The translations under genes and the position numbers were made by a program. Of a stretch of DNA of 53,499 nucleotides, positions 7,474 through 48,965 are shown piece after piece (the first letter of the stretch is position 1; each line of letters opens with the position of its first letter). The notes beneath the pieces are model-generated. The model saw nothing but the letters and a program-made list of their open reading frames with translations. It did no database searches and was not told where the DNA came from. The DNA comes from a virus: positions 1 through 53,499 of IMG/VR virus record IMGVR_UViG_3300043772_002232, one strand, 5' to 3'.

Positions 7474-8019
7474 TTAATATTTATTAAATCTTTTAAACAT
7501 ATTAAGTGTCTTTAAAACCTGTTCTTGTATAGGCTCAATCACATCTTCATCAATATCCTGTTCGTCAATATATTTAATAACCATTTCATCATTTGTTATG
7601 TCATCATCAACTCGTAAATCTAAAACATCGGTTTCTTCTTTATCATCGTGACCGAAAGTTCCGTGTTCTAAATCATCTTCTCTATCACCTATCATATCTA
7701 ATGGTGTTCCAACGCTAAGGTATTCGCTCTCAAAAGTTTCTTCAGGATGAAATGCCGATCCTGATTGAGCGTCTTCATCAAACAATCCTGTCGATTTTCC
7801 ATCGAATCTCATTTCATTAATTCCCACATTTTTATATTCGGAAACATCCCCTTTATTATTTACGGTTAAACCCATCTTATCATTTGCCAAATCCTGAACA
7901 TATAATGGTTGAGTATTAGATTGAGAATAATTGGTTACATATCCATCATAGATAGTTCTATGTTTATTGAGAATACTTTCCTTTTCTTCTCTTGTCATCT
8001 TAAAAAGATATTGATTCAT
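7474..8019 (-). CDS. Acidic tagged protein, 181 aa
   Basis: The N-terminus FKMTREEKESILNKHRTIYDGY matches the tag variant in the 476-residue protein at 35389 (ITEEEKKHILSLYSI). The body is acidic and low in complexity, with Asp/Glu-rich stretches at about residues 110-165, and ends in a helix (EPIQEQVLKTLNMFKRFNKY). ATAAATA at 8036-8042 (TATTTAT on this strand) is 16 nt before ATG. Function unknown. Confidence 0.7.
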   Translation of the reverse strand: MNQYLFKMTREEKESILNKHRTIYDGYVTNYSQSNTQPLYVQDLANDKMGLTVNNKGDVSEYKNVGINEMRFDGKSTGLFDEDAQSGSAFHPEETFESEYLSVGTPLDMIGDREDDLEHGTFGHDDKEETDVLDLRVDDDITNDEMVIKYIDEQDIDEDVIEPIQEQVLKTLNMFKRFNKY

Positions 8020-8051
8020 AATTTTTATTTTTTATATAAATACATTTAAAC

Positions 8052-8393
8052 CTATAAAACTTTACTAACCAAATTAATTAGTTGTTTTTTAGTTATAAGA
8101 TAAGATTCTTTTTTTATTCCTCTTTTTTTATCGGTATAATATGGGTCTTTTGTCCAAGTATCTTTTTTAATCGAAAGAGATAATGTACTTATTCTTTTAC
8201 CAATATTGTCATAATCTCCATCATCCCAGGTCACTTTATACATCCATTCGCCGGCCGCGTCAAACAATTCTCCCGCAACTCCCCAACTTCCTGGTGATAA
8301 ACTTTCACCATCCATAAATAATAGACATACTCTATCACCAATTTCTAACTTTGGATTTATTCTTGAATCGGGATTTAAATCGTTAGGTCTCAT
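8052..8393 (-). CDS. SH3/KOW-like protein with tag at its C-terminus
   Basis: 113 residues. Residues about 15-65 (GDRVCLLFMDGE...WMYKVTWDDGDYDNIGKRIS) look like a small beta-barrel. The last 18 residues, ESYLITKKQLINLVSKVL, match the tag found at the N-termini of other proteins here (compare LISENKLDNLIYDYV). This is one of two cases where the tag is C-terminal. TATTTAT on this strand lies at 8418-8424, 24 nt upstream. Confidence 0.7.
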   Translation of the reverse strand: MRPNDLNPDSRINPKLEIGDRVCLLFMDGESLSPGSWGVAGELFDAAGEWMYKVTWDDGDYDNIGKRISTLSLSIKKDTWTKDPYYTDKKRGIKKESYLITKKQLINLVSKVL

Positions 8394-8433
8394 ATATTTT
8401 TACGTATTTTATTAATAATAAATATTATCAAAG

Positions 8434-8440
8434 TATTTAT
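8434..8440 (+). promoter_or_regulatory. TATTTAT box before tagged membrane protein
   Basis: TATTTAT 6 nt before ATG at 8447, in the divergent region shared with the C-terminally tagged gene. Confidence 0.5.
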
Positions 8441-8446
8441 TGTCGT

Positions 8447-9079
8447 ATGGGTATCACAATTTTAATTAATGAAAATCAAAAAAGAAGACTAATCCTTGAA
8501 GGTAGTGGTGATTTTATTGTTGAGACATTATCAAAAAATTATGAATTTGTTAAAAAAGTTATTAAGGATTCATCAAGTCAGATAGGTCTTAATTTAGAGT
8601 TTTTGGTTAGTTGGGGGGCAACTATTGGCGGATTTGTAGGTCCTTTAGAAGAATTTTTAAGAGGTGTTGAGCCTAGTTTATCTGATTTAGAAGTTAGTTT
8701 AATCTTAACAGGGGTTATTTCGTCTTATTATCTCGATAATAAAGAATACGTCAAAAAAATTATCGATACTATAAAAGAAAAAGGTTTATATAAACCATTT
8801 AAAAAAGTCTTAACTAAGAGTAAAGAATTTAAATCTGTTTTTTCTGATTTTATTGGTAGTTTAGGTATTACATTACATAAAGTAACTAACATATTAAGTT
8901 ATACTTTTATATTACCATTATTACCCATACTATATAATATGGTTACCGAGAATAATATTAGTTCATCTGAAATTAGTGACCTATCTAAAAGACTGATAGG
9001 GTTTGGTCTTTTAACCGTATCTGGTTTGGTTTTAAAACAATTATTATCAAAAATCGCAAAAAGATTTAAGGGTAAATAA
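8447..9079 (+). CDS. Tagged membrane protein, 210 aa
   Basis: The N-terminus MGITILINENQKRRLILEG is a tag variant, with [IL]NEN then a Lys/Arg-rich helix ending in LEG. Hydrophobic segments at about residues 50-70 (LEFLVSWGATIGGFVG), 75-95, 140-165 (ILSYTFILPLLPILY) and 182-200 suggest several membrane helices. A Lys-rich tail ends KIAKRFKGK. It may be an internal virion membrane-active protein, but function is unknown. Confidence 0.7.
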   Translation: MGITILINENQKRRLILEGSGDFIVETLSKNYEFVKKVIKDSSSQIGLNLEFLVSWGATIGGFVGPLEEFLRGVEPSLSDLEVSLILTGVISSYYLDNKEYVKKIIDTIKEKGLYKPFKKVLTKSKEFKSVFSDFIGSLGITLHKVTNILSYTFILPLLPILYNMVTENNISSSEISDLSKRLIGFGLLTVSGLVLKQLLSKIAKRFKGK

Positions 9080-9139
9080 TAATTTGTCTATTTGTTTTTA
9101 TTTTACTATATTTTATTAGAAATATTAGTTTTTTAAAAA

Positions 9140-12071: not shown

Positions 12072-12581
12072 ATGAAAAGAGTTATATTAGACGAAAAAAA
12101 AATTCGTAAAATAATCAGACAACAATTACTTGAGGATGTCTCATTAGAAAAAGAAAAAACAGATTCTAAACCAAGATGTTTAACAACTAACACCATTCCA
12201 TTAGACGACATCGTTGGTACATCAAAAGATTTTAACTTATACATCTCAAATTTGAATAAAAGAGATGGGGGTATTAATGGTATGGTCGATGCTCTTGATA
12301 TTTTAAGAACTTTAAGACTACATCCTCATATTAATGATGGTGGTGAACATTTATCATATGATTTAATGAATCACCTTAATATGTTCAGAAATAAACATTA
12401 TTATGACGAAACAAATGGAGATTGTCTTAGCGCGATGGATAAAGTAATTGAACTTTATAAAGAAAATGAGCATGGCGAAGAATTGGTTAAGGACATTGAA
12501 AAAGTTTTAAATCATAAAGACCCGACTCCTAGAGCGAAGGAGTATTTAAAACGTTGTTTGAATTTAATAAAAGAAAAATAA
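12072..12581 (+). CDS. Tagged hypothetical protein, 169 aa
   Basis: The N-terminal tag is MKRVILDEKKIRKIIRQQLL, followed by ED and a charged linker. It resembles the MKKVIRLTE class and ends with an LLE site of the (I/L)xE type. The body is helical with many charged residues (LDILRTLRLHPHIND, AMDKVIELYKEN) and no recognised domain. Two TATTTAT boxes precede it and a strong hairpin series follows it, so it is probably monocistronic. Confidence 0.7.
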   Translation: MKRVILDEKKIRKIIRQQLLEDVSLEKEKTDSKPRCLTTNTIPLDDIVGTSKDFNLYISNLNKRDGGINGMVDALDILRTLRLHPHINDGGEHLSYDLMNHLNMFRNKHYYDETNGDCLSAMDKVIELYKENEHGEELVKDIEKVLNHKDPTPRAKEYLKRCLNLIKEK

Positions 12582-19338: not shown

Positions 19339-19608
19339 ATGACAAAAAAAGAAAAATTATCTTCATTATTCGATAGACTTCGTAAAGTTGAATCTTCGTC
19401 CGATGTTGAATCTGTTTCAAAAGAAATTGAAGAATTTTTCAATGAAAATCAAATTAAAGACCCCGAATTAAAAAAAACTCTTGATAGTTTAATATCTTTA
19501 TTAAAGTTAAAATTTAAAAAACGTAAGAAACAAAACGAAAGTTTAAAAACATCAAATTACGTTATTAGTGAAACTCAGTTACAATTTATAATTAATAATA
19601 TAAAATGA
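19339..19608 (+). CDS. Helical protein with tag at its C-terminus
   Basis: 89 residues from ATG at 19339 (MTKKEKLSSLFDRLRKVES). The body is helical and charged. The last 18 residues, SNYVISETQLQFIINNIK, match the tag that is N-terminal elsewhere (compare KYLISENKLDNLIYD). Its ATGA overlap with the lipoprotein gene (19605) links the two. Together with the 113-residue protein at 8052 it shows that the tag can work at either end. Confidence 0.7.
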   Translation: MTKKEKLSSLFDRLRKVESSSDVESVSKEIEEFFNENQIKDPELKKTLDSLISLLKLKFKKRKKQNESLKTSNYVISETQLQFIINNIK

Positions 19609-19833: not shown

Positions 19834-20997
19834 TTACTTTCTACGTCTATACTTCAACTCAGTTTCAAATTGTTCACCTGTTTTATTTATTTTGTGATGT
19901 AATTCCCAATTCTTAATTGATGAATTTTTTTCTTTGGCAAGAGACCAAAGCTTTGATAATTTTTTCATAATTTTTGATGATACAATTTTCATTTTCTTTT
20001 CTTCATTTAAATAAAATCCTAAAATATTATTTTCAAATTTATTAAAATAATTAATCATATCATAAAATATTTTTTGTTTTTTACCTATAAAACCAATAAT
20101 TTCTTCAAAATCACTTGTTGTCATCATTTCTTTAACTTTGGTGATTGTATTATTGGTTAAATTAATATAAACAATTCTTAACAATTCGTCAACTAATTCA
20201 TCATCGGTTTTAAATGATTCAACATTTTCTACACCAACTCTCTTTAAGAAAATTTTAACGGCTTTTGAATCCTGTTTTAATTCTTCTCTCATTTTTTCAT
20301 AAGAAAAATTATTAATCTTCTTTAACATTTTATAAGTTTCATTGTTTGTTAGAAAATTATAAAAACCTTCTTTATCTATTTCATTAGACCTCATAAGCGA
20401 AGAAACCTCAATTGGTCTAACCAAATTTTCAACCGCATGAGTAAAATAAACGTAATGTAAAAATTTCTGTATTGGGTAGAACGGAAAAGATGTTGAGGCA
20501 ATTCCGGCATAACTCGGAACTTCTTTTATTGATTTGTATTTTTTCTTATAATTGTTGTATGAGTGACCTAATTCGTGAGACAAAGAACTTGTAATTTCTT
20601 TATGTTTTTTTTCAAAAAATTCTATAATTTCTTTTTTTGTTGTTCCTTCAGGTCCTGCCAAATTAATAATCATATTAATTTGACCTTTATCTATTTTAGC
20701 TTTTAATTTTAAAATTTTATTATTAAAAATCGTTCTTTGAGCAACCGCCATAGAATAAAACTCAACATCTGATAATTTATCATATTCTTCAAACGTTATT
20801 GTTAAAAAAACATCAGTAATATATAAGTCGGATATAGATAATTCAGTTTCAATATCAAATTCCATTTCATTGTCTAATTCATTAGGAATGGTTTGTAATT
20901 CATTATATATTTCATTATATAATATTTCGGACGATTCTAAAACACCTTTAGGAACACCAACGGCTTCTTTTAATATTCTTCTAATTAAATCTCTCAT
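19834..20997 (-). CDS. Tagged zinc metalloprotease (HELGH)
   Basis: 387 residues. The N-terminal tag is MRDLIRRILKEA. LSHELGHSYNNYKKK at about residue 165 is an HExxH zinc site. A third ligand is probably in the helical segment near THAVENLVRPIEVSS (about residue 205), whose ENLVRPIE resembles the ENLxRxxE glutamate helix of related phage and bacterial zincins. The rest is helical. It has no signal peptide, so a tagged protease could be carried in the virion. TATTTAT at 21003-21009 is 5 nt before ATG. Confidence 0.8.
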   Translation of the reverse strand: MRDLIRRILKEAVGVPKGVLESSEILYNEIYNELQTIPNELDNEMEFDIETELSISDLYITDVFLTITFEEYDKLSDVEFYSMAVAQRTIFNNKILKLKAKIDKGQINMIINLAGPEGTTKKEIIEFFEKKHKEITSSLSHELGHSYNNYKKKYKSIKEVPSYAGIASTSFPFYPIQKFLHYVYFTHAVENLVRPIEVSSLMRSNEIDKEGFYNFLTNNETYKMLKKINNFSYEKMREELKQDSKAVKIFLKRVGVENVESFKTDDELVDELLRIVYINLTNNTITKVKEMMTTSDFEEIIGFIGKKQKIFYDMINYFNKFENNILGFYLNEEKKMKIVSSKIMKKLSKLWSLAKEKNSSIKNWELHHKINKTGEQFETELKYRRRK

Positions 20998-32275: not shown

Positions 32276-32611
32276 TTAAATTTTAATTAAAGTAACTCCA
32301 TAAACTTCTAATTCCCACTCCGACCCATATTCTGTAAGACCTAAACCAAACATACTATCAAGAGAATTAAATAAATTCCTTCTAATATCATAAGGAAATC
32401 TATTGTGTATATCTTCTAAATTACCATTAGATCTATTAAATGGGTCGACTACCACACAAATAACATTTCTTGTAATTGACTTGTCGTCTGATGCTAAATA
32501 TACACCTTGTTCTTTAAACGACACACTAATAACATTTAAGTCTGAAAATTCATTTAATATAAAATTTTCAATAATTTTCTCTAATTTAGATTCTGTTAAA
32601 AGGTATTTCAT
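32276..32611 (-). CDS. Tagged protein, 111 aa, TESKL paralog family
   Basis: The tag is MKYLLTESKLEKIIENFILN. The rest follows the family layout seen at 43305-47070: strand-rich middle, then a helix near the C-terminus (RRNLFNSLDSMFGLGLTEYG). TATTTAT on this strand at 32617-32623, 5 nt before ATG. Function unknown. Confidence 0.7.
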   Translation of the reverse strand: MKYLLTESKLEKIIENFILNEFSDLNVISVSFKEQGVYLASDDKSITRNVICVVVDPFNRSNGNLEDIHNRFPYDIRRNLFNSLDSMFGLGLTEYGSEWELEVYGVTLIKI

Positions 32612-34004: not shown

Positions 34005-34358
34005 ATGAAATACTTAATATCAGAAAATAAATTGGACAATCTAATATATGATTATGTTGTTGATATGTTTATGAACAATGAAGAGGGTGAGTTAAATTTT
34101 ACTTACAATTATGATGAAGATGGTAACGAGACTGACGACGCAATTCAATTTTATTTTAGTGATTATGGTGAAGACTATGAAGCGTTTCGTTGGTATTCGG
34201 AAGAATATTTTGATGATGGTTGTGAAAGGTGTCCCATTGTAGAGTTAAGTCGTGAATTAAAGGATAATTTGGATTCAATGTTTTCCGATAAATGGGAAAG
34301 TCAGTTTAAAAAATGGATGAATAATGAATTTAACATTTACGTTAAAACTATTCAGTAA
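34005..34358 (+). CDS. Tagged acidic protein, 117 aa, SENKL family
   Basis: The tag is MKYLISENKLDNLIYDYVVD. The body is strongly acidic (NYDEDGNETDDAIQFYFSDYGEDYE) and ends in an amphipathic helix (LKDNLDSMFSDKWESQFKKWM). Its closest relative here is the protein at 35052, with the same acidic, Tyr-rich design. Convergent with the gene at 34361. Confidence 0.7.
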   Translation: MKYLISENKLDNLIYDYVVDMFMNNEEGELNFTYNYDEDGNETDDAIQFYFSDYGEDYEAFRWYSEEYFDDGCERCPIVELSRELKDNLDSMFSDKWESQFKKWMNNEFNIYVKTIQ

Positions 34359-34360: not shown

Positions 34361-34678
34361 TTATCTTCTTTTAAAATACAATGAAGGTTCATAACCCGTA
34401 AGTTTATAATATTCTCTAGGGTCATATAATTTGGCGGAACAAAATTGTTGTTCAAGAGCGTTAAGATAATCGTCAATATAATAATTTATTGCGTCCTGAA
34501 CCGTCTCGTCTTCAGATTCACTTAAATAATCTTCAATATCTTCATCGGTAATTAAAAATTCTTCAACCTTTTCTACAGGATTTTTACGATTAGGACATTT
34601 AATTACGGCAATAAATTTATGACCAGATAATTCTTCCATTATTAATTTATGTTGTGATTCAGTTATTATTATTTTCAT
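34361..34678 (-). CDS. Tagged protein, 105 aa
   Basis: The tag is MKIIITESQHKLIMEEL. A second tag-like stretch, FLITDEDIEDYLSESE, occurs in the middle. The C-terminus contains YYIDDYLNALEQQFC and a basic end. It lies 1 nt from the upstream 119-residue gene. Not recognised. Confidence 0.7.
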   Translation of the reverse strand: MKIIITESQHKLIMEELSGHKFIAVIKCPNRKNPVEKVEEFLITDEDIEDYLSESEDETVQDAINYYIDDYLNALEQQFCSAKLYDPREYYKLTGYEPSLYFKRR

Positions 34679-35051: not shown

Positions 35052-35375
35052 TTACACGGCTTTAATAAAATCGATATCAATCTCGAATTTATATTCTACA
35101 AATTTTTTAAAAATTGGAATCCAATGTTCGCTAAATAAACCATTCATAGTATCAATAAAATTGGTATCATAAATCTCAAGTACGTTATCACCTGAATTAT
35201 TATAATCTCTCGAATAATAAAAAACATCGGTATAATCACCACTTGTATCTATAACAAATAAATTATCTTCAAATTCCTCATCCTCCTCGGTATAAAGTTC
35301 ATCCCAGTTATAATACTCCTCAATATATTTTAAAATAGAATCGTTTAATCTGTTTTCGGTTATAATGTACTTCAT
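35052..35375 (-). CDS. Tagged acidic protein, 107 aa, TENRL family
   Basis: From ATG at 35375 the tag is MKYIITENRLNDSILKYIEE. An upstream ATG at 35411 would place the start inside the previous gene and before the TATTTAT box (35380-35386, 4 nt from ATG), so I reject it. The body is acidic and Tyr-rich (ELYTEEDEEFEDNLFVIDTSG), and ends with an amphipathic helix, as at 34005. Confidence 0.7.
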   Translation of the reverse strand: MKYIITENRLNDSILKYIEEYYNWDELYTEEDEEFEDNLFVIDTSGDYTDVFYYSRDYNNSGDNVLEIYDTNFIDTMNGLFSEHWIPIFKKFVEYKFEIDIDFIKAV

Positions 35376-35379
35376 AATA

Positions 35380-35386
35380 ATAAATA
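35380..35386 (-). promoter_or_regulatory. TATTTAT box before TENRL gene
   Basis: TATTTAT on the minus strand, 4 nt before ATG at 35375. It lies just before the stop codon region of the upstream gene. Confidence 0.5.
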
Positions 35387-35388
35387 TA

Positions 35389-36819
35389 TTAAATTCCGGC
35401 AATTTTATCATAAACTACCGAGCCAATGTATTCCATTTGGTCTTTGAAATTGTCGGAACTACAACCTCCTTCAAAAATTTCATAATATAACCTTTCATAC
35501 AAAGTATTAATAACATTATATTTGTCTGCTTTTTTTCCTGTGAAATGTCTAATTTCGTTATTTATTAAATCTTTATTAAAAAAATTATTATTAACTTCAT
35601 TAAAAAAACATTTTTTAAATCCTTCAATCATTTCTTTTTGTTTTTTTCCAAGTTCGTCTTCAAATGTTTTTATATGTTCATTAAATTTTTCGTCATAATC
35701 ATCTTCATCACCGTCCAAAAGTTGTTGGATGTTATAAGTAATTCCAAGTATCAAATCAGATTCCGCCATATTATAAAAATTCTTAGATATTTTATCAATA
35801 TTTTCCACAAAAACTTTTTTAATTCCTTCGGTTACCTCATTAAGAAAGTCGTCATTAAAAATACCAATTCTTTCAGGACTATCGGCGTATAGTTTTTCAT
35901 TTAAACAATAAAACCCTTCTTTACCAACACCATTAATTTCACTTAAAATATTATCAACCGTTTGTTTAAATTCAGGTCTTCCTTGACCATACATTTGTTC
36001 ATCAGATACCAAAATAAAATCATTTTTATTTTGTTCATTAATATATGGTTTAATGTTTAAAACTGAAATGGGGTTTTTAATGTCCTTATCATTTTTATTA
36101 ATTAAATATGAAACCAATGAACCTTCCCTAACATCTTCAATAATGTATTTAACGTTTTGACCTCTTTCTTTTCTACTTTCAATCTCTCTATTTAATTTAT
36201 CAATTTTTTTTAATACATCTATAGCACCATCGTCATCAGCATTTGGATTATTTTTAATTAAATCTTCATATTCTTTTTTTAACTTTTGAACTCTCTGTGA
36301 TGATTCGTGACCCATTGTCATACAATTTGTCCAATTTCTATCTGTATCTGAGCCTGCAATATCATAAGGATGTCTTGAGATAACAACCAATAAACCTCCA
36401 GAGTCAGATGTTAAAGCTTTCCTTGATTCATCCGAAACAAATTTTTTCATTAAGTTATCGGCTTTCATTCTTGTTAAAGCTTTACCAATTGTTGTTGTAT
36501 TTTTTGATTCACCAAATTTTACAATACCCTTAATATAATCTAATACCTGATATCCATTTTGTTTTAGAAAATCCTCAACCTCTTTTTGTATTGGTGATAC
36601 GGGACCTTCTTTTTTTCCTTCAACCAAAGGAATATAAATTCTATAATAGTTTTTATCGTGGTCGTATTTATCACCCAAGGTTTTAAATACCTCAGAATAT
36701 CTTTCTCTATTAAATTCTTTAACGTAAGGTCTATATTGTGATGGGGTTAACGCTTCATCAATACTATATAACGATAGAATATGTTTTTTTTCTTCTTCTG
36801 TAATTATAAATTTTCCCAT
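35389..36819 (-). CDS. Tagged protein, 476 aa, NWTNCM family
   Basis: The tag is MGKFIITEEEKKHILSLYSI. The centre (ISRHPYDIAGSDTDRNWTNCM at about 150-170, then GSLVSYLINKNDKDIKNPISV at about 240) resembles a conserved phage domain where a W-x-x-C motif is followed by an LI-x-x-x-D strand; its function is unknown to me. Relatives of this domain may also occur at 48357 (CQWCIND). No TATTTAT box is seen at a usual distance. Confidence 0.7.
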   Translation of the reverse strand: MGKFIITEEEKKHILSLYSIDEALTPSQYRPYVKEFNRERYSEVFKTLGDKYDHDKNYYRIYIPLVEGKKEGPVSPIQKEVEDFLKQNGYQVLDYIKGIVKFGESKNTTTIGKALTRMKADNLMKKFVSDESRKALTSDSGGLLVVISRHPYDIAGSDTDRNWTNCMTMGHESSQRVQKLKKEYEDLIKNNPNADDDGAIDVLKKIDKLNREIESRKERGQNVKYIIEDVREGSLVSYLINKNDKDIKNPISVLNIKPYINEQNKNDFILVSDEQMYGQGRPEFKQTVDNILSEINGVGKEGFYCLNEKLYADSPERIGIFNDDFLNEVTEGIKKVFVENIDKISKNFYNMAESDLILGITYNIQQLLDGDEDDYDEKFNEHIKTFEDELGKKQKEMIEGFKKCFFNEVNNNFFNKDLINNEIRHFTGKKADKYNVINTLYERLYYEIFEGGCSSDNFKDQMEYIGSVVYDKIAGI

Positions 36820-36841: not shown

Positions 36842-37786
36842 CTATTTTACGGGATAAAGTGCTATTAATTGAGCAATTCTTGTATTATTTTCCCATTTAA
36901 TATCCTTCAATAATTTTGGGTTGTATTCAGTATTTTTTTTAAATGTATTCTCACACGATTCACAAGGTTTATTTGGTTCACTAATCCTTAATACAATTTT
37001 GAATACTTTAGTACTACCTGAGTCGACACTAAAAGTTTTTTTATCCATATCAAATTTTATGGAATTTTCATCAATGCTAGCCAAACTGGTTTTTGTTGCA
37101 ATATCATTCACAAATGATGTGATGTCTCGACTTGAAACTTCAATTTTTTGGTTTGTTTGTTGTGAAGTACCGCCTCCAACATAATATAAATGCCATGGTT
37201 CTTGCATTCTTATATTACCCGTCATGTAAGGTAAAGTAAAACCCCACTTATTTGGTTTGTTAAAATCACCAGCTGGCCAAGCGTTACCCCTTAAACATAT
37301 TGTATTTCCTCCGTAATCAATCGCTCTACCCGTATGATGTTGACTAAATCCTGGTATGGAAACTCGTTTCATTGCGAAATCGATTTTTGAACCTGTTGTG
37401 GAGATTTTCCCTTCATTTATAAATCTTCTTTTTTGGTCTTCATAACTTCTATATGACACAGGTAACGTTGAATCTTTATCGTCAACTTCCTTTATGAATA
37501 TATCATTACACCCACTTTCATTTTTCATTTTATTAAAAGCAGCAATCGCATCGGGCAAAAGTCCACCGGCTTCAGACTTTATTTGTCCTGATAAACCAAT
37601 CTCTTTTTTAAAATGAGCATCGACAAATTTTTCTCCCAACTCATTTTCAATATCTCTTAAAATATTTTGTAATCCAGTGTCCGAAACATATGTGGAAATG
37701 ATGTCATTAACATTTTGTTCGGATAATAACCCATACATTTTACGGATATTGTTTTTTTCAGATTCCGTAATTATAAATTTTCTCAT
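36842..37786 (-). CDS. Tagged M15-type peptidase, VanY-like
   Basis: 314 residues. The tag is MRKFIITESEKNNIRKMYGL, followed by LSEQ. The peptidase core spans about 95-215: the zinc site is in SQHHTGRAIDYGG and the second ligand in EPWHLYYVGGG, as in D-Ala-D-Ala carboxypeptidases and L-alanoyl-D-glutamate endolysins. There is no signal peptide. A tagged cell-wall peptidase would fit delivery inside or on the virion, to open the wall at entry. The C-terminal 100 residues are unassigned. Confidence 0.85.
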   Translation of the reverse strand: MRKFIITESEKNNIRKMYGLLSEQNVNDIISTYVSDTGLQNILRDIENELGEKFVDAHFKKEIGLSGQIKSEAGGLLPDAIAAFNKMKNESGCNDIFIKEVDDKDSTLPVSYRSYEDQKRRFINEGKISTTGSKIDFAMKRVSIPGFSQHHTGRAIDYGGNTICLRGNAWPAGDFNKPNKWGFTLPYMTGNIRMQEPWHLYYVGGGTSQQTNQKIEVSSRDITSFVNDIATKTSLASIDENSIKFDMDKKTFSVDSGSTKVFKIVLRISEPNKPCESCENTFKKNTEYNPKLLKDIKWENNTRIAQLIALYPVK

Positions 37787-37797: not shown

Positions 37798-38028
37798 TTA
37801 ATAATTATTTAAAATATCCTTAATATTATCTATGATTTGACTCAATTTTGGAGACTTTTCCGTGGACTTGCCCTTTTCAAATTCCGGCATAGACACATTT
37901 CTAAAAACACCCATTAAATCTCGTTTCAAATCCTTTATTTTTTCTATTTCTGATTGTTCACTTTCGATTAATACACGTTTAACAATTTTATTTAAATCGT
38001 TTTCAGTTAATCTTATAACTTTTTTCAT
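37798..38028 (-). CDS. Tagged protein, 76 aa, MKKVIRLTEND class
   Basis: The tag is MKKVIRLTENDLNKIVKRVL followed by IESEQ, with an LIE site. The rest is a short charged helix (EIEKIKDLKRDLMGVFRNV) and a basic linker. In such a small protein the tag is a quarter of the length. TATTTAT lies 16 nt upstream, at exactly the same distance as in the gene at 38476. Confidence 0.7.
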   Translation of the reverse strand: MKKVIRLTENDLNKIVKRVLIESEQSEIEKIKDLKRDLMGVFRNVSMPEFEKGKSTEKSPKLSQIIDNIKDILNNY

Positions 38029-38128: not shown

Positions 38129-38407
38129 TTAACAACGTCTATCAAAATACAACTCGGTTATCTCAGAATAAAACATATCTTGGAGTTCATTCATTGTTCC
38201 CTTATAATCAAATCCTTCAATGTCATAAAAATAAGGATGAAGGTCATCCATCATATAATATAAAAATCTTTTTTCATACTCATCAAAAGAATTAAATTTA
38301 CAACGGTCAACATATTTGGCCGATTCCTTAAAAGCCTCCTCAACCAAATCATACCTTCTCAATAACCACATTCGATTATTTTGTGATTCTGTTATAATGA
38401 ATTTCAT
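38129..38407 (-). CDS. Tagged protein, 92 aa, ITESQNN family
   Basis: From ATG at 38407 the tag is MKFIITESQNNRMWLLRRYD, matching the 109-residue protein at 26899. The longer frame to 38440 runs through the TATTTAT box (38412-38418, 4 nt before ATG). The body is acidic and Tyr/Phe-rich (EKRFLYYMMDDLHPYFYDI). Function unknown. Confidence 0.7.
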   Translation of the reverse strand: MKFIITESQNNRMWLLRRYDLVEEAFKESAKYVDRCKFNSFDEYEKRFLYYMMDDLHPYFYDIEGFDYKGTMNELQDMFYSEITELYFDRRC

Positions 38408-38475: not shown

Positions 38476-38760
38476 TTAATAATCAAATGTATCTTCTTCA
38501 TCACCACCATGGAGGTCATCCGCCAAAGATGACAATTCGTAGAAGTCATCCTCATCCATATAACCGCCAACTTCATCAAGCAAATACCAAACATCGGATT
38601 CTTCGGCAGCATCAGGGCTCCAACCAAGCTCATCAACGGCAACACTTCTGGCAATCCCCAAAAGTTTTTTATATCTTTTCACATCCGAATCTTCTTTAAT
38701 TACTCTTTTAACCAATCTCATTAAATCAGATTCAGTTAATCTTATAACTCTTTTTTTCAT
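38476..38760 (-). CDS. Tagged protein, 94 aa, MKKRVIRLTESD class
   Basis: The tag is MKKRVIRLTESDLMRLVKRV, then IKED with an IKE site. The rest is acidic (WSPDAAEESDVWYLLDEVGGYMDEDDFYEL). Terminator and leader sequences are repeated at neighbouring tagged genes, a sign of cassette-like duplication. Function unknown. Confidence 0.7.
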   Translation of the reverse strand: MKKRVIRLTESDLMRLVKRVIKEDSDVKRYKKLLGIARSVAVDELGWSPDAAEESDVWYLLDEVGGYMDEDDFYELSSLADDLHGGDEEDTFDY

Positions 38761-38877: not shown

Positions 38878-39156
38878 TTATTGATTATCCCTATATATGT
38901 TTCTAATATACTCTTGAAAATGGTCATCAATAAAAGACATTAAATCATCCCTATCAATCTCATTCCAATGTAATCCTTCCTTATCTCCCAAAAATACATT
39001 CTTATAAACCAAATCTTTAATATCATTATAGAATTCATCCTCATCGTAATACATATCAGGATTACTTGATAAATTATCAATTAGTTTTTTAATCTGACCA
39101 TATCTTCTTTTATATATAAGGTCATTAAATTGTCTTTCGTTAATAATAATTTTCAT
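38878..39156 (-). CDS. Tagged protein, 92 aa, INERQF class
   Basis: The tag is MKIIINERQFNDLIYKRRYG. The body is acidic and helical (MYYDEDEFYNDIKDLVYK, DRDDLMSFIDDHFQEYIRN). TATTTAT at 39172-39178 on this strand lies 15 nt before ATG. It is the last minus-strand gene before the large non-coding region. Confidence 0.7.
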   Translation of the reverse strand: MKIIINERQFNDLIYKRRYGQIKKLIDNLSSNPDMYYDEDEFYNDIKDLVYKNVFLGDKEGLHWNEIDRDDLMSFIDDHFQEYIRNIYRDNQ

Positions 39157-42957: not shown

Positions 42958-43290
42958 ATGAAAAAAACTATAAAACTTACGGAATCTGATTTAATAAAAT
43001 TAGTTAAAAGAATTATTAATGAAGAGATTGAATTCGGAAACCACTATGAAGATGTACGTGATGATATTGAACCTGGTGATGCGGTTGATTTTAAAAAGTA
43101 CGGACCTTTATATGTTATATCAATTATGGGAGATGGGTATCTTGTTAGTGATGACCACGAACAAAGATACATGGGAGATAGTGGGGATGGGTATCTAATT
43201 CCATTGTCAAGTGGGAAACACGCTTTAATCTTAGATAAGGGAGAATCTGACGAAGAAGACGATGATGATTATGATTTTAGTCATTTATAA
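42958..43290 (+). CDS. Tagged protein, 110 aa, MKKTIKLTESD class
   Basis: The tag is MKKTIKLTESDLIKLVKRII, followed by NEE (INE site). Residues about 35-90 form a small beta domain (GDAVDFKKYGPLYVISIMGDGYLVSDD). The end is acidic (ESDEEDDDDYDFSHL). Head of the tandem plus-strand tagged cluster. Function unknown. Confidence 0.7.
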   Translation: MKKTIKLTESDLIKLVKRIINEEIEFGNHYEDVRDDIEPGDAVDFKKYGPLYVISIMGDGYLVSDDHEQRYMGDSGDGYLIPLSSGKHALILDKGESDEEDDDDYDFSHL

Positions 43291-43304: not shown

Positions 43305-43610
43305 ATGAAATTCGAAATTAATGAGAATAAGTTAGATAAGATTATCTTTCGGTATTTGGATGGTAAAAACTTTATCATTAAGGAGACTGATAATTTTTAT
43401 TATTTTTTAGAAAGTGAGTCCGATGAATATATTGAGATTAAGGTTAGAAAACGTGATATGAGTTGTTTTATTAGATACGAATTATCTGATGATATTAAAT
43501 CGTTTTTTACAATTGATAATCTTAAAGTAAAAGATGTTTTAAAAAAATATATTAATAATATTTTAAATGTTAAAATAACTAATTCTTACGATAGTATTAA
43601 TTGGAGGTGA
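43305..43610 (+). CDS. Paralog-family protein, 101 aa, NENKL
   Basis: The tag MKFEINENKLDKIIFRYLDG is also the first helix of the family fold. Then follow IIKETDNFYYFLESE, a basic strand (IEIKVRKRDMSCFIRYEL) and SFFTIDNLKVKDVLKKYINNILNVKIT. It aligns closely with the proteins at 44077 and 46723. Small size and acid/base alternation suggest a structural or regulatory partner. Function unknown. Confidence 0.75.
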   Translation: MKFEINENKLDKIIFRYLDGKNFIIKETDNFYYFLESESDEYIEIKVRKRDMSCFIRYELSDDIKSFFTIDNLKVKDVLKKYINNILNVKITNSYDSINWR

Positions 43611-43631: not shown

Positions 43632-44075
43632 ATGAAACTACAAGAACAAATATATAGAATACAAGAGATGATGGGTTTGAATGAGGATTATAAACCTATG
43701 GGAAAGAAACATAAACCAAGTAAATTTGTTTATCATAAATCCCCGCCTTTGGTTAGAGATAGTATTCTTAAATCAGGTTTATTGGTATCTGTTGGTGATT
43801 GTTATAAAACATACTCTGAAAACTTTTCTAAAGAAGAATGTGTTCCCGCTGTGTTTGCAACTGATTCTGAAAATAAAGATGAATGGTTTGAGTCCACTTG
43901 GGATGATGATGTTTGGAGAATAAATACCAAAATAGCCAATGTTACATGGTTTAAAGATAAACATTTTGAAAATATGAGACACCCCGAGTTTAAGTATAAT
44001 CATATTGTTACATTTGAGGATATTAAACCTGAAGCGTTAAAATTAATCTATAAAGGAACGGGGGAAGATAATTAA
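43632..44075 (+). CDS. Tagged, possibly ADP-ribosyltransferase-like protein
   Basis: 147 residues. The N-terminal tag is MKLQEQIYRIQEMMGLNED. The rest, KFVYHKSPPLVRDSILKSGL, then PAVFATDSENK and HIVTFEDIKPEALKLIY, resembles the compact ART fold (H-Y motif, RxSIL helix, hydrophobic-ATD strand) found in Tpt1/KptA- and phage-type transferases. In T4, the packaged Alt protein is also an ADP-ribosyltransferase with a cleaved N-terminal targeting peptide. Fold assignment is by eye only. Confidence 0.6.
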   Translation: MKLQEQIYRIQEMMGLNEDYKPMGKKHKPSKFVYHKSPPLVRDSILKSGLLVSVGDCYKTYSENFSKEECVPAVFATDSENKDEWFESTWDDDVWRINTKIANVTWFKDKHFENMRHPEFKYNHIVTFEDIKPEALKLIYKGTGEDN

Positions 44076-44076: not shown

Positions 44077-44403
44077 ATGAAATTCGAAATTAATGAAAAT
44101 AAGTTGGAGAAGGTTATCTTTAAGTATTTGGATAGTAAGAACTTTATTATTAGGGAAACCCCTTTTGATTATTACTTTTTGGAAAACGAGGGTGATAAGT
44201 TTCTTCAGATTAGAATTAGAAAAAGTGATATGTTATGTTTTTTATTCTATAATTTAACCCAAGATATTAAATCGTTTTTTTCAATTGAATACCCTATGGT
44301 TGAAGATGTTTTAACGAGATATGTTGAGGAGACCTTAAACATTAAAGTTTCTGACGTATGGATGGATGGTTCATTACATATCTCGATGTTAAAAAAGGGT
44401 TAA
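44077..44403 (+). CDS. Paralog-family protein, 108 aa, NENKL
   Basis: It reads MKFEINENKLEKVIFKYLDS..., and ends with the longest conserved block, FFSIEYPMVEDVLTRYVEETLNI. This block is almost identical to 46723 at the DNA level. It starts 1 nt after the LQEQI gene, so the two are translationally coupled. Function unknown. Confidence 0.75.
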   Translation: MKFEINENKLEKVIFKYLDSKNFIIRETPFDYYFLENEGDKFLQIRIRKSDMLCFLFYNLTQDIKSFFSIEYPMVEDVLTRYVEETLNIKVSDVWMDGSLHISMLKKG

Positions 44404-44422: not shown

Positions 44423-44779
44423 ATGAAATTCTTAATAACCGAAAATAAATTGGATGGGATTATTGATTCTTTTATCACCAAACAATTTGAAGATTTGAAA
44501 CCTATTAAAGAAGGTAATTTGGTTGTTTGGGTTGACCCTGATAAAAAACCATATGTACTTATTAAACACTATGATAATGGTGATTACGATATTAATATTT
44601 TGGAAAGTATTTATTTTTTGATTAGTAATATGTTTTCTATTAAAGAGCTTGAAGATGTGGAGAAATACTTATTAAAATGGTTTGAAAAACACACGGGGAT
44701 GATTGCCGATGTTGTTTTCGCATTTGATAACGACATAACCTATGAAGAAATTATTAGTATATATATTAAAGGTGCCTAA
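44423..44779 (+). CDS. Tagged protein, 118 aa, TENKL
   Basis: The tag is MKFLITENKLDGIIDSFITK. The body has a beta segment (GNLVVWVDPDKKPYVLIKHY) and an acidic helix (ELEDVEKYLLKWFEKHTGM), a looser version of the family. TATTTAT 5 nt before ATG. Function unknown. Confidence 0.7.
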   Translation: MKFLITENKLDGIIDSFITKQFEDLKPIKEGNLVVWVDPDKKPYVLIKHYDNGDYDINILESIYFLISNMFSIKELEDVEKYLLKWFEKHTGMIADVVFAFDNDITYEEIISIYIKGA

Positions 44780-44849: not shown

Positions 44850-45203
44850 ATGAAATTCTTAATCACCGAAAATAAAATTACCAAAGTCATTCAGAAATAT
44901 ATTAGTTTTATAACTAATGACCCTGAATTTAATTGGGTAGATAAAATTGTTATTGAACTTGGATCAGTTGAAGGAATTGGTTCTGATATATTCCCCCTGT
45001 ATACTTACAAAGTTTATTTTAAAGAAGATAATCCTGATTACGAATCACAACTTAAATTATGGGATGACATATCTTCCACTCATAAGTTATTTTTTCAATC
45101 GGATAGTGAGGGAAATCCTGTTGCTTATTTTACCACATATTCCATTAAACCTGACGGATCAACTGATTCATTACCAAGTTTCAAAGTAAAAGTTAATACA
45201 TAA
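44850..45203 (+). CDS. Tagged protein, 117 aa, TENKI
   Basis: The tag is MKFLITENKITKVIQKYISF. The body is beta-rich (VDKIVIELGSVEGIGSD, PLYTYKVYFKEDN). It is more divergent than its neighbours, with no SIEYP block. Function unknown. Confidence 0.7.
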   Translation: MKFLITENKITKVIQKYISFITNDPEFNWVDKIVIELGSVEGIGSDIFPLYTYKVYFKEDNPDYESQLKLWDDISSTHKLFFQSDSEGNPVAYFTTYSIKPDGSTDSLPSFKVKVNT

Positions 45204-45212: not shown

Positions 45213-45533
45213 ATGGAATCTGAAATGAAAAATAATAAATTGGATCAAGTAATCTTTAAGTATTTGGATACCAATTTATCTATTAAAGAAACCTCTGACA
45301 ACTATTATTTTTCAGAAGATGGAAATAAAGCACATATTGTGGTTAAAAAAGACCATCTTTATTGTTATGTTAGTATTGAGTTTTTGGATAGTATTGAATC
45401 ATTTTTTTCTATTGAATATCCTTACTCTATAGATGTAGTTAGTGAATATGTTGAAAACGTTTTAGGTGTTAACTTGCTCAGGACTGCGCCATATCTTAAA
45501 AGTTGGATTGTTCCTCCCCCTGATAATAATTAA
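45213..45533 (+). CDS. Paralog-family protein, 106 aa, degraded tag
   Basis: It reads MESEMKNNKLDQVIFKYLDT..., where the usual ITENKL is MKNNKL, possibly a lost tag. Then follow IKETSDNYYFSEDG and SFFSIEYPYSIDVVSEYVENVLGVN. The end (SWIVPPPDNN) differs from relatives. An ATG at 45225 is an alternative start. Confidence 0.7.
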   Translation: MESEMKNNKLDQVIFKYLDTNLSIKETSDNYYFSEDGNKAHIVVKKDHLYCYVSIEFLDSIESFFSIEYPYSIDVVSEYVENVLGVNLLRTAPYLKSWIVPPPDNN

Positions 45534-45553: not shown

Positions 45554-45859
45554 ATGAAATTCTTAATTACGGAGAACAAGTTAAATAACTTAATTTTTCT
45601 TTATTTAGACAATGAAGATTTCTTTATTAGGGAAACTCCAACCAATTATTATTTTTTAGAGGATCGTAAAAATAATATGTTCGCATCTATTAATGTCAGA
45701 AAAAAAGATAATATTTGTTTTATTTTTCCAGGGTTAGTTCAGGAAGTGTCAATCTTTTTTACTATTAGTAGTGATATGTCGGTAGATTCGATAATAAAAT
45801 ATACTGAGAATAAATTAAAAGAAAAATTTGAAAAAACATTTTATTTACACCGATATTAA
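45554..45859 (+). CDS. Paralog-family protein, 101 aa, TENKL
   Basis: The tag is MKFLITENKLNNLIFLYLDN, then FFIRETPTNYYFLED, matching RETPFDYYFLE of 44077. The C-terminal block is diverged (SIFFTISSDMSVDSIIKYTENK). Clear member of the family. Function unknown. Confidence 0.75.
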   Translation: MKFLITENKLNNLIFLYLDNEDFFIRETPTNYYFLEDRKNNMFASINVRKKDNICFIFPGLVQEVSIFFTISSDMSVDSIIKYTENKLKEKFEKTFYLHRY

Positions 45860-46687: not shown

Positions 46688-46711
46688 ATAAAATATTATG
46701 GTAAAAACAAC

Positions 46712-46718: not shown

Positions 46719-46722
46719 CATT

Positions 46723-47040
46723 ATGAATTTTGAGATTAACGAAAACAAATTGGAAAAGGTTATCTTCAAGTATGTGGACAATAAAAACTATGTCATTAAA
46801 GAAACTGATAATGATTATTACTTTATAGAAAACGAAGAAGATGAATATGCTCAGATTAGAGTTAGAAAAAATAATATGTCATGTTTTATTTATAACGAAT
46901 TAACCGAAGAAATTGAATCGTTTTTTTCAATTGAATACCCTATGGTTAAAGATGTTTTAACGAGATATGTTGAGAATACCCTAAATATTGAGGTATCTAA
47001 CACCCGTACCTTTTGCATAATGAACCTACGAGTTGGTTGA
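46723..47040 (+). CDS. Paralog-family protein, 105 aa, NENKL
   Basis: It reads MNFEINENKLEKVIFKYVDN... and shares nearly all family positions with 44077, including FFSIEYPMVKDVLTRYVENTLNIEVS. The last 20 residues are unrelated. An 18-bp repeat flanks this end (46969-46986 and 47036-47053), so the C-terminus was probably replaced by a small duplication or insertion. Function unknown. Confidence 0.75.
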   Translation: MNFEINENKLEKVIFKYVDNKNYVIKETDNDYYFIENEEDEYAQIRVRKNNMSCFIYNELTEEIESFFSIEYPMVKDVLTRYVENTLNIEVSNTRTFCIMNLRVG

Positions 47041-47053
47041 GAATACCCTAAAT
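46969..47053 (+). repeat. 18-bp direct repeat around the end of the NENKL gene
   Basis: GTTGAGAATACCCTAAAT at 46969-46986 and again at 47036-47053. The second copy starts inside the stop-codon region of the gene. It marks a recent duplication or an inserted stretch of 67 bp. Confidence 0.7.
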
Positions 47054-47058
47054 TAAAC

Positions 47059-47065
47059 TATTTAT
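47059..47065 (+). promoter_or_regulatory. TATTTAT box before TENKL gene at 47070
   Basis: TATTTAT 4 nt before ATG; the same ACTATTTATCATT sequence precedes 46723. Confidence 0.5.
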
Positions 47066-47069
47066 CATT

Positions 47070-47438
47070 ATGAAATACCTAATCACAGAAAATAAATTAG
47101 AAAAGGTTGTCTTTAAATTTTTGGATGGTAAAGATTTAAAAATGATTAAGAAAAAAATTAAACATTATAGTGATATCACAAGTACTAGAATATTTTTTGT
47201 TTTAAATGAGTCTGATAAAACTTCTGAAATAACTTATGATGGTTGGAGTGGTAAACTTTTTATTAGTTCCGTTTTACGTGATGAGATTTTTAACTTCTTT
47301 TCTCTTGAGGAGGAGTATGATTCTGAAATAATAATTTCAGATTGGGTTCAATCAAAAATCAATAAGAAAATTGATATTTTTAAAGTACAATCATATCATC
47401 CCAATAGTTTTTCAGGAAGTATTTTTGAGATTGATTAA
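47070..47438 (+). CDS. Paralog-family protein, 122 aa, TENKL
   Basis: The tag is MKYLITENKLEKVVFKFLDG. The body (IKHYSDITSTRIFFVLNESD, then FNFFSLEEEYDSEIIISDWVQ) keeps the FFS and acidic-helix pattern of the family, with an insertion. It overlaps the convergent LQEQI gene by 4 nt. Function unknown. Confidence 0.7.
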   Translation: MKYLITENKLEKVVFKFLDGKDLKMIKKKIKHYSDITSTRIFFVLNESDKTSEITYDGWSGKLFISSVLRDEIFNFFSLEEEYDSEIIISDWVQSKINKKIDIFKVQSYHPNSFSGSIFEID

Positions 47439-47827
47439 AAAGTTTCTAATTCACCATCAAATTCATCACAGGATTTAACTTTTTTGTGATAAACATCCAC
47501 AGGAATATTTGTAAAGTTATAAGTATAATCCCAAGCGTCGTCCATTAATTTGTAATACATATCTTGGACTTTCATTGTTTGAGGCCAAAACTTGGTTCCG
47601 TAACCACCAATTACATAAAGAGTAACACTATAATGTTTGTATTTTGGTTGTCCTTCTAAAACTTCTCTATTGTCGGGATGTGTGACCTCAATCTTACATA
47701 CAGCATCTTTATTTGGTTCAAGAATGGTTTGATTTAATAATGTCTCAATTAGTCCTGACAAATCTTTTTTGGATTCGTTTAAAGACATCATTGATTTCAT
47801 TCTTGATATTTGTTCTTGTAGGTTCAT
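47435..47827 (-). CDS. Tagged protein, 130 aa, LQEQI class
   Basis: The tag is MNLQEQISRMKSMMSLNESK. Then a helical linker and a beta-rich domain (DAVCKIEVTHPDN, YKHYSVTLYVIGGYG). ATGA overlap with the upstream gene, which has nearly the same tag. Function unknown. Confidence 0.7.
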   Translation of the reverse strand: MNLQEQISRMKSMMSLNESKKDLSGLIETLLNQTILEPNKDAVCKIEVTHPDNREVLEGQPKYKHYSVTLYVIGGYGTKFWPQTMKVQDMYYKLMDDAWDYTYNFTNIPVDVYHKKVKSCDEFDGELETF

Positions 47828-48345
47828 CTATTTAAATAATTATCTATTATTTCTTGTACTTCAGGATTATCTCCTGTGTAAATTATATCAATAACATATT
47901 TGTGTAGTGGGTATATCTCATTTGTCATTACACGTTCTTCTAATTCGTTAAACTTTTCTTTATATTCTGAATCAGGGTCAATTCCATGATAATTAAATGG
48001 TTCTACTTTGTATTTTGTTTTTAGTTTGCTCTTATCAACAACAAACGTCATTCCAGTGTCTTCTAATTTTGAACCAACTCCTATACCAATTGTGTTATTT
48101 GGTTGCCAGTTCTTATCTCTTGTAAATGATATTGCGGTTTGAGTTTTAGTTTTTCGTAATCTATCATCATCCCTTAAATATTCTCCTGATGGTAGTGTTC
48201 CCCTTAATGAATCTGAATTAATAATATCTATTCCCCTACTTGTTGATGTCTTGTGGTATAATGGTGTTCCTTGTATATCTTCTAACTTTTCAGATATAAC
48301 CCCCATCATTGATTGTATTCTATTTATTTGTTCTTGTAGGTTCAT
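47824..48345 (-). CDS. Tagged ADP-ribosyltransferase-like protein
   Basis: 173 residues. The tag is MNLQEQINRIQSMMGVISEK. Then LYHKTSTSRGIDIINSDSLRG (H-Y and Arg-helix motif at about 28-48), TAISFTRDKNW at about 68 (STR/FTRD strand) and NELEERVMTNEI at about 135 (the Glu-rich site), finishing KYVIDIIY. This order is like phage and bacterial ART-fold toxins. If active it would modify a host protein or RNA; delivery in the virion is suggested by the tag. Not certain. Confidence 0.65.
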   Translation of the reverse strand: MNLQEQINRIQSMMGVISEKLEDIQGTPLYHKTSTSRGIDIINSDSLRGTLPSGEYLRDDDRLRKTKTQTAISFTRDKNWQPNNTIGIGVGSKLEDTGMTFVVDKSKLKTKYKVEPFNYHGIDPDSEYKEKFNELEERVMTNEIYPLHKYVIDIIYTGDNPEVQEIIDNYLNR

Positions 48346-48356
48346 TCCTTTTCAGA

Positions 48357-48965
48357 TTATTTTAAATTATTACTATCAGGTAAGTTTAAAAGAACGCCCT
48401 CATTTCTCGAAAGATAATTATCTATTATTCTAATTATTTCAGGGGTCATATTTGGTATATCAGATATTTCAAAATTAAAACCCCATAATGGATTATCTTC
48501 CATATCGTATATACCATTTTCAGGTGAGTAATATACAATATTGGTTGCGAAGTTATTTATGTCATTTGATATTGTGACATAATAGTCACCCATCTCTTGT
48601 TCGTTTTTAAATTGATAACCTAATATACCACAAACATCCTCAAAACGATATCCACCTTCATCCCATCTTGACATAATTAATATCTCTGATGGTATTGGTT
48701 GTCCTGTGATACCTATCTTTTCTTTCTTTGGTTTTCTTTGAATGATAACCGCGTGTTTACCTTGGTGATAATCTTCCCATTCGGATTTATCATCATTAAT
48801 ACACCATTGACAGAAACTTGCGTATTTTTGTAAAGCCTTATGTGTTAAAGGAACAACTACAATAATATTATCATCTTTGTAAAGTTCTACTCTTTCTTCT
48901 CTTGGAACTCTTACTTCATTAAGTTCTTCCCTTAATATTCTTCTTATGGTTTGTTGTAAGTTCAT
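48357..48965 (-). CDS. Tagged protein, 202 aa, WC-domain
   Basis: From ATG at 48965 the tag is MNLQQTIRRILREELNE, which joins the LQEQI and ILREE tag classes in one sequence. I reject the ATG at 49007 because a TATTTAT box (48972-48978, 6 nt before ATG) follows it. The body, KALQKYASFCQWCINDDKSEW, then GKHAVIIQRKPK, matches the A-x-x-YG-x-x-x-WC pattern of a conserved phage domain of unknown function. Confidence 0.7.
   Translation of the reverse strand: MNLQQTIRRILREELNEVRVPREERVELYKDDNIIVVVPLTHKALQKYASFCQWCINDDKSEWEDYHQGKHAVIIQRKPKKEKIGITGQPIPSEILIMSRWDEGGYRFEDVCGILGYQFKNEQEMGDYYVTISNDINNFATNIVYYSPENGIYDMEDNPLWGFNFEISDIPNMTPEIIRIIDNYLSRNEGVLLNLPDSNNLK

Follow-up and report, generated by a model that had tools for sequence, protein, structure and literature searches.

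Short exchangeable terminal tags on unlike viral proteins, candidate capsid-targeting propeptides of a T4-like Bacteroidota phage lineage

The window analysed here is the virus record IMGVR_UViG_3300043772_002232, a stretch of 53,499 bases with 99 predicted proteins of at least 50 amino acids (aa; 105 under a slightly different rule). Many of these proteins start with one of a few short related peptides, the tags that are the subject of this study. Five profile hidden Markov models (HMMs) for tag types A, A2, B, C and D, a division made by eye, took 20 window tags as seeds and were iterated over the window, the sources G015, G006 and G034, and Flavobacterium phage immuto; the target set consisted of 1,141 predicted proteins cut to their first 45 residues. 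The latter four sources contributed no seeds but were recruited during iteration. At E<0.01, 28 of the 99 window N-termini matched (20 seeds and 8 non-seeds; Table 1) and 30 did so at E<0.1, as compared to 6 of 3,907 decoys consisting of internal 45-mers from the same proteins (13 at E<0.1). The tag family in the window proteins is real, and the figure of about 34 tagged proteins in the initial annotation was a little too high though of the right order of magnitude. At E<0.01, tags were also detected in 64 of 385 proteins of G015, 33 of 356 of G006, 27 of 83 of G034 and 2 of 218 of immuto; no match was obtained in T4 (254 proteins), KVP40, P-SSM2, phiKZ or crAss001, all of which stood outside the iteration.

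The motif (I/L)xE was found within residues 1–32 of all 28 tagged window proteins, and in 98.7% of 154 tagged versus 35% of 771 untagged proteins, a comparison in which the profiles themselves contain the motif. We therefore also counted (I/L)xE ending at residues 6–12 in all proteins, tagged or not. In the window the motif occurred in 32% of the 99 N-termini and in 10.5% of internal segments; the corresponding values were 21 vs 8% in G015, 17 vs 8% in G006, 33 vs 11% in G034, 14 vs 7% in immuto, 15 vs 8% in T4, 11 vs 6% in P-SSM2, 10 vs 9% in KVP40, 7 vs 8% in phiKZ and 10 vs 8% in crAss001. Given this N-terminal excess among all proteins, the tag signal is independent of the profiles. Searches by tblastn of a phage collection with a window type B protein and with the type B tag region yielded no useful match; the hits obtained at E 10 had low scores and came almost exclusively from Staphylococcus phages. 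Within the open-access literature (titles and abstract starts) we found neither a paper describing the tag family nor a virion proteome of any tagged phage. The peptide strings gave a single match, in an unrelated German ophthalmology paper, and the portions of PMC7077304 available to us do not mention immuto. Four immuto proteins (NC_055915; 1803, 103806, 117631 and 118632) carry a further tag family of their own, approximately M..FDLKKFLVENKLTxNSKxL.

Table 1. Tagged proteins of the window. Slashes mark putative cleavage points; E values refer to the tag HMMs.
Coordinates	Strand	Length (aa)	Tag	Type	HMM	Remarks
8447..9079	+	210	MGITILINE/NQ...	A	5e-6, non-seed	Relatives start MKVVISENQ (G015) and MDVLITESQ (G006)
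12072..12581	+	169	MKRVILDEKKIRKIIRQQLLE/D	B	7e-8, non-seed	Relatives bear B or A2 tags
19834..20997	-	387	MRDLIRRILKE/AVGVP	D	seed	
26899..27228	+	109	MKFIITE/SQ	A	seed	L101 relative has type C tag, ITE aligned to LNE
27338..28051	+		MGKDMRDLLDGYGKILNE/S		0.058	Borderline, exceeds 0.01 count cut-off; SAM lyase-like
30897..31865	-	322	MIDNIIKNILRE/E	D	seed	L002 relative (34% identity) starts MRNLIFKVLREEAE
32276..32611	-	111	MKYLLTE/SKLEKIIENFILNE/F		seed	
34005..34358	+	117	MKYLISE/NKL		seed	
34361..34678	-	105	MKIIITE/SQ		seed	
35052..35411	-		MKYIITE/NRL		7e-14, non-seed	True start probably an internal ATG, residue 13
35389..36819	-	476	MGKFIITEEEKKHILSLYSIDE/ALTPSQ	A2	seed	L154 relative, 57% identical: MRLRLTEPELKKVIIKMVNE/VLKPSQ
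36842..37786	-	314	MRKFIITESEKNNIRKMYGLLSE/Q	A2	seed	M15 (VanY) peptidase
37798..38028	-	76	MKKVIRLTENDLNKIVKRVLIE/S	B	seed	
38129..38407	-	92	MKFIITE/SQ		seed	
38476..38760	-	94	MKKRVIRLTESDLMRLVKRVIKE/D	B	seed	
38878..39156	-	92	MKIIINE/RQ		2e-5, non-seed	
42958..43290	+	110	MKKTIKLTESDLIKLVKRIINE/E	B	seed	
43305..43610	+	101	MKFEINE/NKL		1e-8, non-seed	Paralogue family; body in a 33-protein cluster
43632..44075	+	147	MKLQEQIYRIQEMMGLNE/D	C	seed	ART-like; relatives have type D leader
44077..44403	+		MKFEINE/NKL		1e-8, non-seed	Paralogue
44423..44779	+		MKFLITE/NKL		seed	
44850..45203	+		MKFLITE/NKI		seed	
45213..45533	+		MESEMKNNKLDQVIF		7e-5, non-seed	Paralogue; decayed tag without (I/L)xE at residue 7
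45554..45859	+		MKFLITE/NKL		seed	Paralogue
46723..47040	+		MNFEINE/NKL		1e-6, non-seed	Paralogue
47070..47438	+		MKYLITE/NKL		seed	Paralogue; same 33-protein cluster as 43305
47435..47827	-	130	MNLQEQISRMKSMMSLNE/S	C	seed	
47824..48345	-	173	MNLQEQINRIQSMMGVISE/K	C	seed	ART-like
48357..48965	-	202	MNLQQTIRRILRE/E	C/D hybrid	seed	
19339..19608	+		end YVISETQLQFIINNIK (...NYVISETQLQFIINNIK)		C-terminal, 0.0018	C-terminal tag
8052..8393	-		end YLITKKQLINLVSKVL (...SYLITKKQLINLVSKVL)		C-terminal, 0.068	Possible C-terminal tag, weak; G015 relative without tag at C-terminus

Direct pairwise comparison (BLAST, E 1e-5) divided the bodies behind the 28 window tags into 24 families, which bears out their earlier description as otherwise unrelated proteins; the sole family with several members comprises those at 43305, 44077, 45213, 45554 and 46723. 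The comparison was then extended to 215 sources, most of which had been picked for holding tags, with 3,353 distinct proteins between them. Among these proteins, 825 were tagged and fell into 302 body clusters, 43 of which combined two or more tag types, or 30 when A and A2 are counted as one. Transitive linking of the window bodies through the full set of 825 tagged proteins gave 15 clusters. With 24 families by direct comparison, 15 by transitive linking, and exchanges of tags on related bodies, the tags are portable between unrelated proteins. The peptide might alternatively be a first helix common to the members of a single homologous domain family that spread by gene duplication. Such an origin would agree with the one paralogue family, about 100 aa in length, that comprises five or six window proteins and with the merging of nine further window bodies in one large cluster by transitive linking, but common descent is contradicted for most pairs by direct comparison, related bodies bear different tags, tags also occur at C-termini and internally, and the bodies include a VanY peptidase and ADP-ribosyltransferase (ART)-like folds. 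We regard it as extremely improbable.

Several families illustrate the exchange of tags. The window protein at 19834 (MRDLIRRILKE/AVGVP) and its G015 relative (MKKNLIITENQLEIIVNNLLLNE/AVGVP) share the start of the body and differ in the tag. A body that reads GLHDTSW...IIDGHHR is preceded by MNLQEQISRIQSMMGVINE in two phages and by MKKIIRLTESELILLVKRVINE in a third; this family has one type B and two type C tags, each ending VINE/GLHDTSW, at alignment identities of 73 and 78%. By eye, the IIDGHHR motif makes the family look ParB-like; one member searched against Pfam gave no match. In a head-module family, RYMFFSNL...RQC, several kinds of leader all end in (I/L/V)xE directly before the body (11 of 11 members). 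The protein at 48357, earlier said to join two tag types, was likewise labelled a C/D hybrid under our division by eye. A small Cys-rich module, approximately CxxCxxSWxxSxGGDxPYLCHxCGxDNSKxELTEKCWPGY, lies behind several tags (L169:2418, L214:112, L108:7496 and others) and looks by eye like a zinc ribbon.

Pfam and PHROGs searches on ten cargos named the VanY peptidase and gave weak or no matches for most. The M15 peptidase of the initial annotation was confirmed at 36842..37786 (VanY, PF02557, E 7e-12), the zincin proposed at 19834..20997 had no Pfam match, and Pfam likewise gave none for the proteins at 48357, 44423, 37798 and 7474. Two window proteins were modelled by AlphaFold2 at moderate quality, with a predicted local distance difference test (pLDDT) score of 70 for 43632 (10 sequences) and 67 for 47824 (8 sequences); in both models the tag is a low-confidence helix and the body is separate. 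Foldseek against the PDB matched 43632 to KptA/Tpt1 (E 9e-4, probability 1.0, template modelling (TM) score 0.46) and 47824 to DarT (E 8e-3, probability 0.99, TM 0.49) and Tpt1 (E 1e-2, probability 1.0, TM 0.38). With moderate confidence, the models thus suggest ADP-ribosyltransferase folds for both, which supports the ART-like proteins of the initial annotation. T4 Alt, described as the prototype of an injected host-modifying enzyme in the part of Iyer et al. 2017 (PMC5512222) available to us, is an ART. The borderline-tagged protein at 27338-28051 resembles S-adenosylmethionine (SAM) lyases (PF23780, E 5e-10) and is plausibly a virion anti-restriction enzyme. When the 476-aa protein at 35389-36819 was compared by tblastn with large phages, 31 of 40 matches started at query residues 9–28, close to the tag or beyond it, and 9 at residues 2–4. 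Relatives of this body occur in very large phages of other hosts (LR756502, LR756504, Atu_ph07, Lu11, and Erwinia and Dickeya jumbo phages). A search for related loci with the M15 peptidase returned one distant locus.

To define where a tag ends, we collected type B tags from IMG/VR with a DNA pattern for MKK(I/V/M)IRLTE, which matched at least 120 stretches and gave 136 open reading frames, 123 of them unique and at least 60 aa long. Since the pattern fixes residues 1–9, only residue 10 onward is informative. Among the 123 unique proteins from the matches listed, conservation stayed high through E22 (2.9 bits), dropped to 1.0 bit at residue 23 and to 0.1–0.4 bits from residue 24 on (0.34 at 24). 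A hydrophobic-x-E motif (I, L, V, M or F) ended at residue 22 in 98 and at residue 26, one helical turn further, in 11 of these proteins. Tag modules overall are about 7–26 residues long, in keeping with T4-type CTSs (capsid-targeting sequences) as short terminal propeptides of some 6–20 residues. According to the parts of PMC9026906 and PMC5694885 at hand, T4 gp21 cleaves after L/I-X-E, the T4 internal proteins carry propeptides of 10–19 residues that are capsid-targeting sequences (CTSs; PMC9026906), and Alt is cleaved at ITE-6 and LTE-619 (PMC5694885). The two Alt cuts have a parallel in the common type A tag MKFLITE/ and in the C-terminal tags reported here. Sixteen major capsid proteins (MCPs) from 20 head regions of tagged phages have the leader FLINE/A, HLINE/A or YLINE/A where T4 gp23 has FLTE/A, and a seventeenth, from L129, has HLIYE/A; the leader boundary of the MCP in tagged phages thus bears the same putative cleavage motif as the tags. 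By eye, the start of T4 gp24, MAKINELLREST, resembles type D tags.

Among 66 pairs of related bodies whose tags differ in type and whose N-termini are out of register, 38 had a cleavage-type site in register once the bodies were aligned, against a null mean of 10.4 (standard deviation 2.6, maximum 20 over 2,000 draws).

Tags are not confined to N-termini. In the final scan of C-termini (proteins >75 aa), 28 of 3,083 passed E<0.1, most of them weakly; full C-terminal tags were found on head-module-locus proteins of L145, L144, L137 and L139 (E 1e-9 to 5e-4). The protein that follows the MCP in L131-L147 starts with a tag-like peptide, and in several phages it ends with one as well. We rejected the C-terminus IFITENALNRYNK of the window's IMP dehydrogenase/GMP reductase-like protein (9140-10171, PF00478) as a tag despite its tag-like look, as it had no C-terminal profile match and the relative present in G015 lacks the peptide.

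Relatives of the window further encode fused proteins of 871–1,018 aa, a size not reached by any tagged window protein, that string together domains occurring singly elsewhere, including the ART-like domain of 43632. The body of 47435 recurs inside a 642-aa fused protein of L178, and the L158 relative of 48357 is a 430-aa fusion with an internal tag. Wherever a solo cargo body recurred within another protein, the joint held (I/L/V/M)xE in 70 of 85 cases, compared to 34% of random positions. After exclusion of 21 joints with a full internal tag, 52 of the remaining 64 still held a bare (I/L/V/M)xE, as against 35% of random positions (p 6e-14). Without cutting at the site, such a frequency would be difficult to account for.

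Window genes are widely common to G015 (304 kb) and G006 (295 kb): the window thymidylate synthase is 72% identical to its G015 counterpart, and the GH19-like endolysin 73–76% identical to those of G015 and G006. Both records hold a T4-type head module with the large terminase subunit TerL, portal, S77 protease, scaffold and Gp23 MCP, and a ribosomal S21 gene (PF01165 in L131) lies within this module on the opposite strand. The same layout, in which the portal, protease and MCP genes have an S21 gene close by on the other strand, is known from the bS21 freshwater Bacteroidetes phages, for which Bacteroidetes hosts were predicted (Chen et al. 2022, PMC9723584); the sections of that description available to us make no mention of a terminal tag.

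We examined the association of tags with this head module in 74 tagged IMG/VR records, picked mainly for length from pattern matches, and LR756502. Of the 69 tagged records of at least 50 kb, 43 had an S77 protease scoring over the cut-off, as did 15 of the 16 of at least 200 kb, the exception being G007; LR756502 remained under the cut-off (22.7 of 27 bits). Control records were obtained with an arbitrary 15-mer, 15 of them selected by length and 35 taken as they came; among these, S77 was present in 2 of 20 of at least 50 kb and in 3 of 50 overall (Fisher p 3e-5 vs tagged). Profile searches found Gp23 in every one of the 20 S77-bearing records examined, among them T4 and immuto, and neither Gp23 nor the S78 protease in any of 31 S77-negative tagged records; the latter therefore look like fragments lacking the head module.

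It is conceivable that the tag is an intracellular docking or localisation helix, directed to a membrane, a replication compartment or a host factor and unrelated to the head, with xE as ordinary helix caps. The tag is indeed modelled as an N-terminal helix, at low confidence, in both ART-like proteins. A role of this kind is unlikely, however, given the bare sites at fusion joints, the end of type B conservation at the E, the presence of such sites in MCPs and other head-module proteins, and the company of S77 and Gp23.

The sequence TATTTAT occurred within 70 bases upstream of 81 of 152 tagged but 167 of 771 untagged genes (window, G015, G006 and G034). We then classed the genes of G015 and G006 by homology to annotated immuto proteins; a TATTTAT-type motif preceded 51 of 97 tagged, 15 of 22 structural, 3 of 16 replication or metabolism and 143 of 606 other genes (p 2e-8 for tagged against other genes; against replication genes, p 0.004 for structural and p 0.015 for tagged ones). 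None of the 22 structural and 16 replication or metabolism homologues bore a tag. We consider the motif a candidate late promoter. The frequency of this motif before tagged genes would also suit a mobile 5-prime DNA cassette of promoter and start codons that spreads between genes, the peptide being incidental, as would the codon identity among 14 G015 type B tags (0.64, with 0.50 expected from codon usage). This is very unlikely, as amino acids are kept while codons vary, C-terminal and internal tags need no start, and equivalent end sites occur in tags of different sequence.

In our interpretation, the tags are probably portable, cleavable capsid-targeting propeptides of a T4-like Bacteroidota phage lineage, and their cargo would be loaded into the head and injected. 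Tagged proteins would be made late in infection together with the head proteins, and the amphipathic tag would dock each cargo in the prohead core. The S77 prohead protease would then cleave after (I/L)xE and free the tag; the mature protein would stay in the head and be injected along with the DNA, and some cargos would be fusions that are cut between domains at bare sites of the same kind. Virion location, cleavage, injection and the docking partner are what we infer from the patterns described. The earlier proposal of a cleavable targeting peptide of the T4 gp21 type is supported by the company of S77 and Gp23, the motif in MCP leaders, the in-register tag swaps, the xE at fusion joints and the upstream motif common with structural genes; sequence homology to the T4 tags was not found. 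A broader scheme, on which we are evenly divided, is modular effector delivery, in which one protease motif would serve both as terminator of the label and as polyprotein joint, and tens of unrelated effectors per genome, single or strung together as domains and recruited via an exchangeable tag at either end, would be loaded into the prohead, cut apart there and co-injected.

Under a narrower form of the capsid-targeting interpretation, the tagged proteins would be scaffold or core components for building a large head instead of injected cargo. Some of them are indeed encoded among the head genes (beside the protease at L129:7660 and 8056, and after the MCP), but most G015 tagged genes are clustered away from the head module and the cargos include a peptidase and ART-like folds; we judge it improbable.

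Several observations weigh against capsid targeting as the role of the tags. The tag profiles matched 0 of 254 T4 proteins and left KVP40 and P-SSM2 likewise unmatched, so that common descent with the T4 CTSs is unsupported. Profile matches to S77, Gp23 and S78 were absent from the window, a 53,499-base fragment whose head type is therefore deduced from its relatives, and the association of S77 with tags can stem from shared ancestry of one lineage and not from function. In a version of the register analysis with rule-fixed boundaries, agreement to within 2 residues was reached in no more than 19 of 58 swapped pairs, as compared to 11 of 58 for plain N-termini, and the site-in-register test was designed after this weak result. 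In short type A tags, similarity runs on beyond the first xE. The cluster that took in nine window bodies holds 286 proteins; we read it as probable chaining via fused proteins and common small modules. The TM-scores of the ART fold matches are all below 0.5, and the upstream motif precedes 24% of other genes too. Finally, a match between tags and the scaffold C-terminus, described below for immuto, was unremarkable in G015 (ranks 70 and 61 of 6,072) and G006 (rank 785 of 5,961).

In immuto (NC_055915), the tags at 25061 and 111675 (MKKQILSEQFRRMQKLAGIITE and MKKQILSEQFKRMQFLAGIITE) resemble the C-terminus of scaffold gp067 (125626), SEQVSRWQKLAGIIK; among 3,225 segments, no other scored as high against either tag (49 and 42, with the runners-up at 35 and 33). 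This resemblance suggests docking by scaffold mimicry in immuto; as it fails in G015 and G006, we left it out of the best explanation. In L131 (9866-15970) and the same genes of L132-L147, few parts of the scaffold are as conserved as its C-terminus, NLIESKTYENPQFLRMKDLMxK.

The DNA of T4 is delivered together with a handful of internal proteins. On our best reading, the tag system would function like the CTS system of this phage, in expanded form. The parts of PMC9026906 and PMC5694885 consulted describe the CTSs of IPI, IPII, IPIII and Alt, all cut by gp21, as short, portable N-terminal propeptides ending in (I/L)xE; as in the relatives studied here, they go along with an S77 protease and a gp23 head, and the ART Alt is also cut near its C-terminus. 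Unlike T4, for which few internal proteins are listed in those parts, the phages described here have tens of tagged proteins per genome (28/99 in the window, 64/385 in G015), several distinct exchangeable tag types of up to 22–26 residues used at either end, internal tags and fused cargos, and no profile-detectable sequence homology. In phiKZ and SPN3US, many inner head proteins, the head ejection proteins, are likewise matured after xE by the prohead protease, and their propeptides are much longer than those of T4, several exceeding 100 residues (PMC5694885, in part); the phiKZ motif is given as S/A-x-E in the portion of PMC9026906 at hand, and in our analysis phiKZ had neither an N-terminal (I/L)xE excess nor tags. 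The nearest concept for the fused cargos would be the polyvalent proteins of Iyer et al. 2017 (PMC5512222), which, as far as the consulted part goes, are multidomain proteins with ART and ParB-like domains proposed to be packaged, injected and processed; autoproteolysis by built-in metallopeptidase (MPTase) domains was suggested for them, whereas the fusions described here have bare gp21-type sites at their joints.

If the proposed role is true, the tag is a readable label that flags tens of candidate early effectors per uncultured-phage genome, most of them unannotated, and predicts the proteins that reach the host at time zero. The content injected from jumbo-phage virions would become testable through a simple sequence rule, and the tags would offer a new natural means of loading proteins into capsids.

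A further observation concerns T4 itself (NC_000866). The start of gp61.1 (18966-19130), MKTFKEFIKED, is very similar to that of the T4 proteins starting MKTYQEFIAEA, internal proteins II and III; gp61.1 is possibly an overlooked T4 internal protein.

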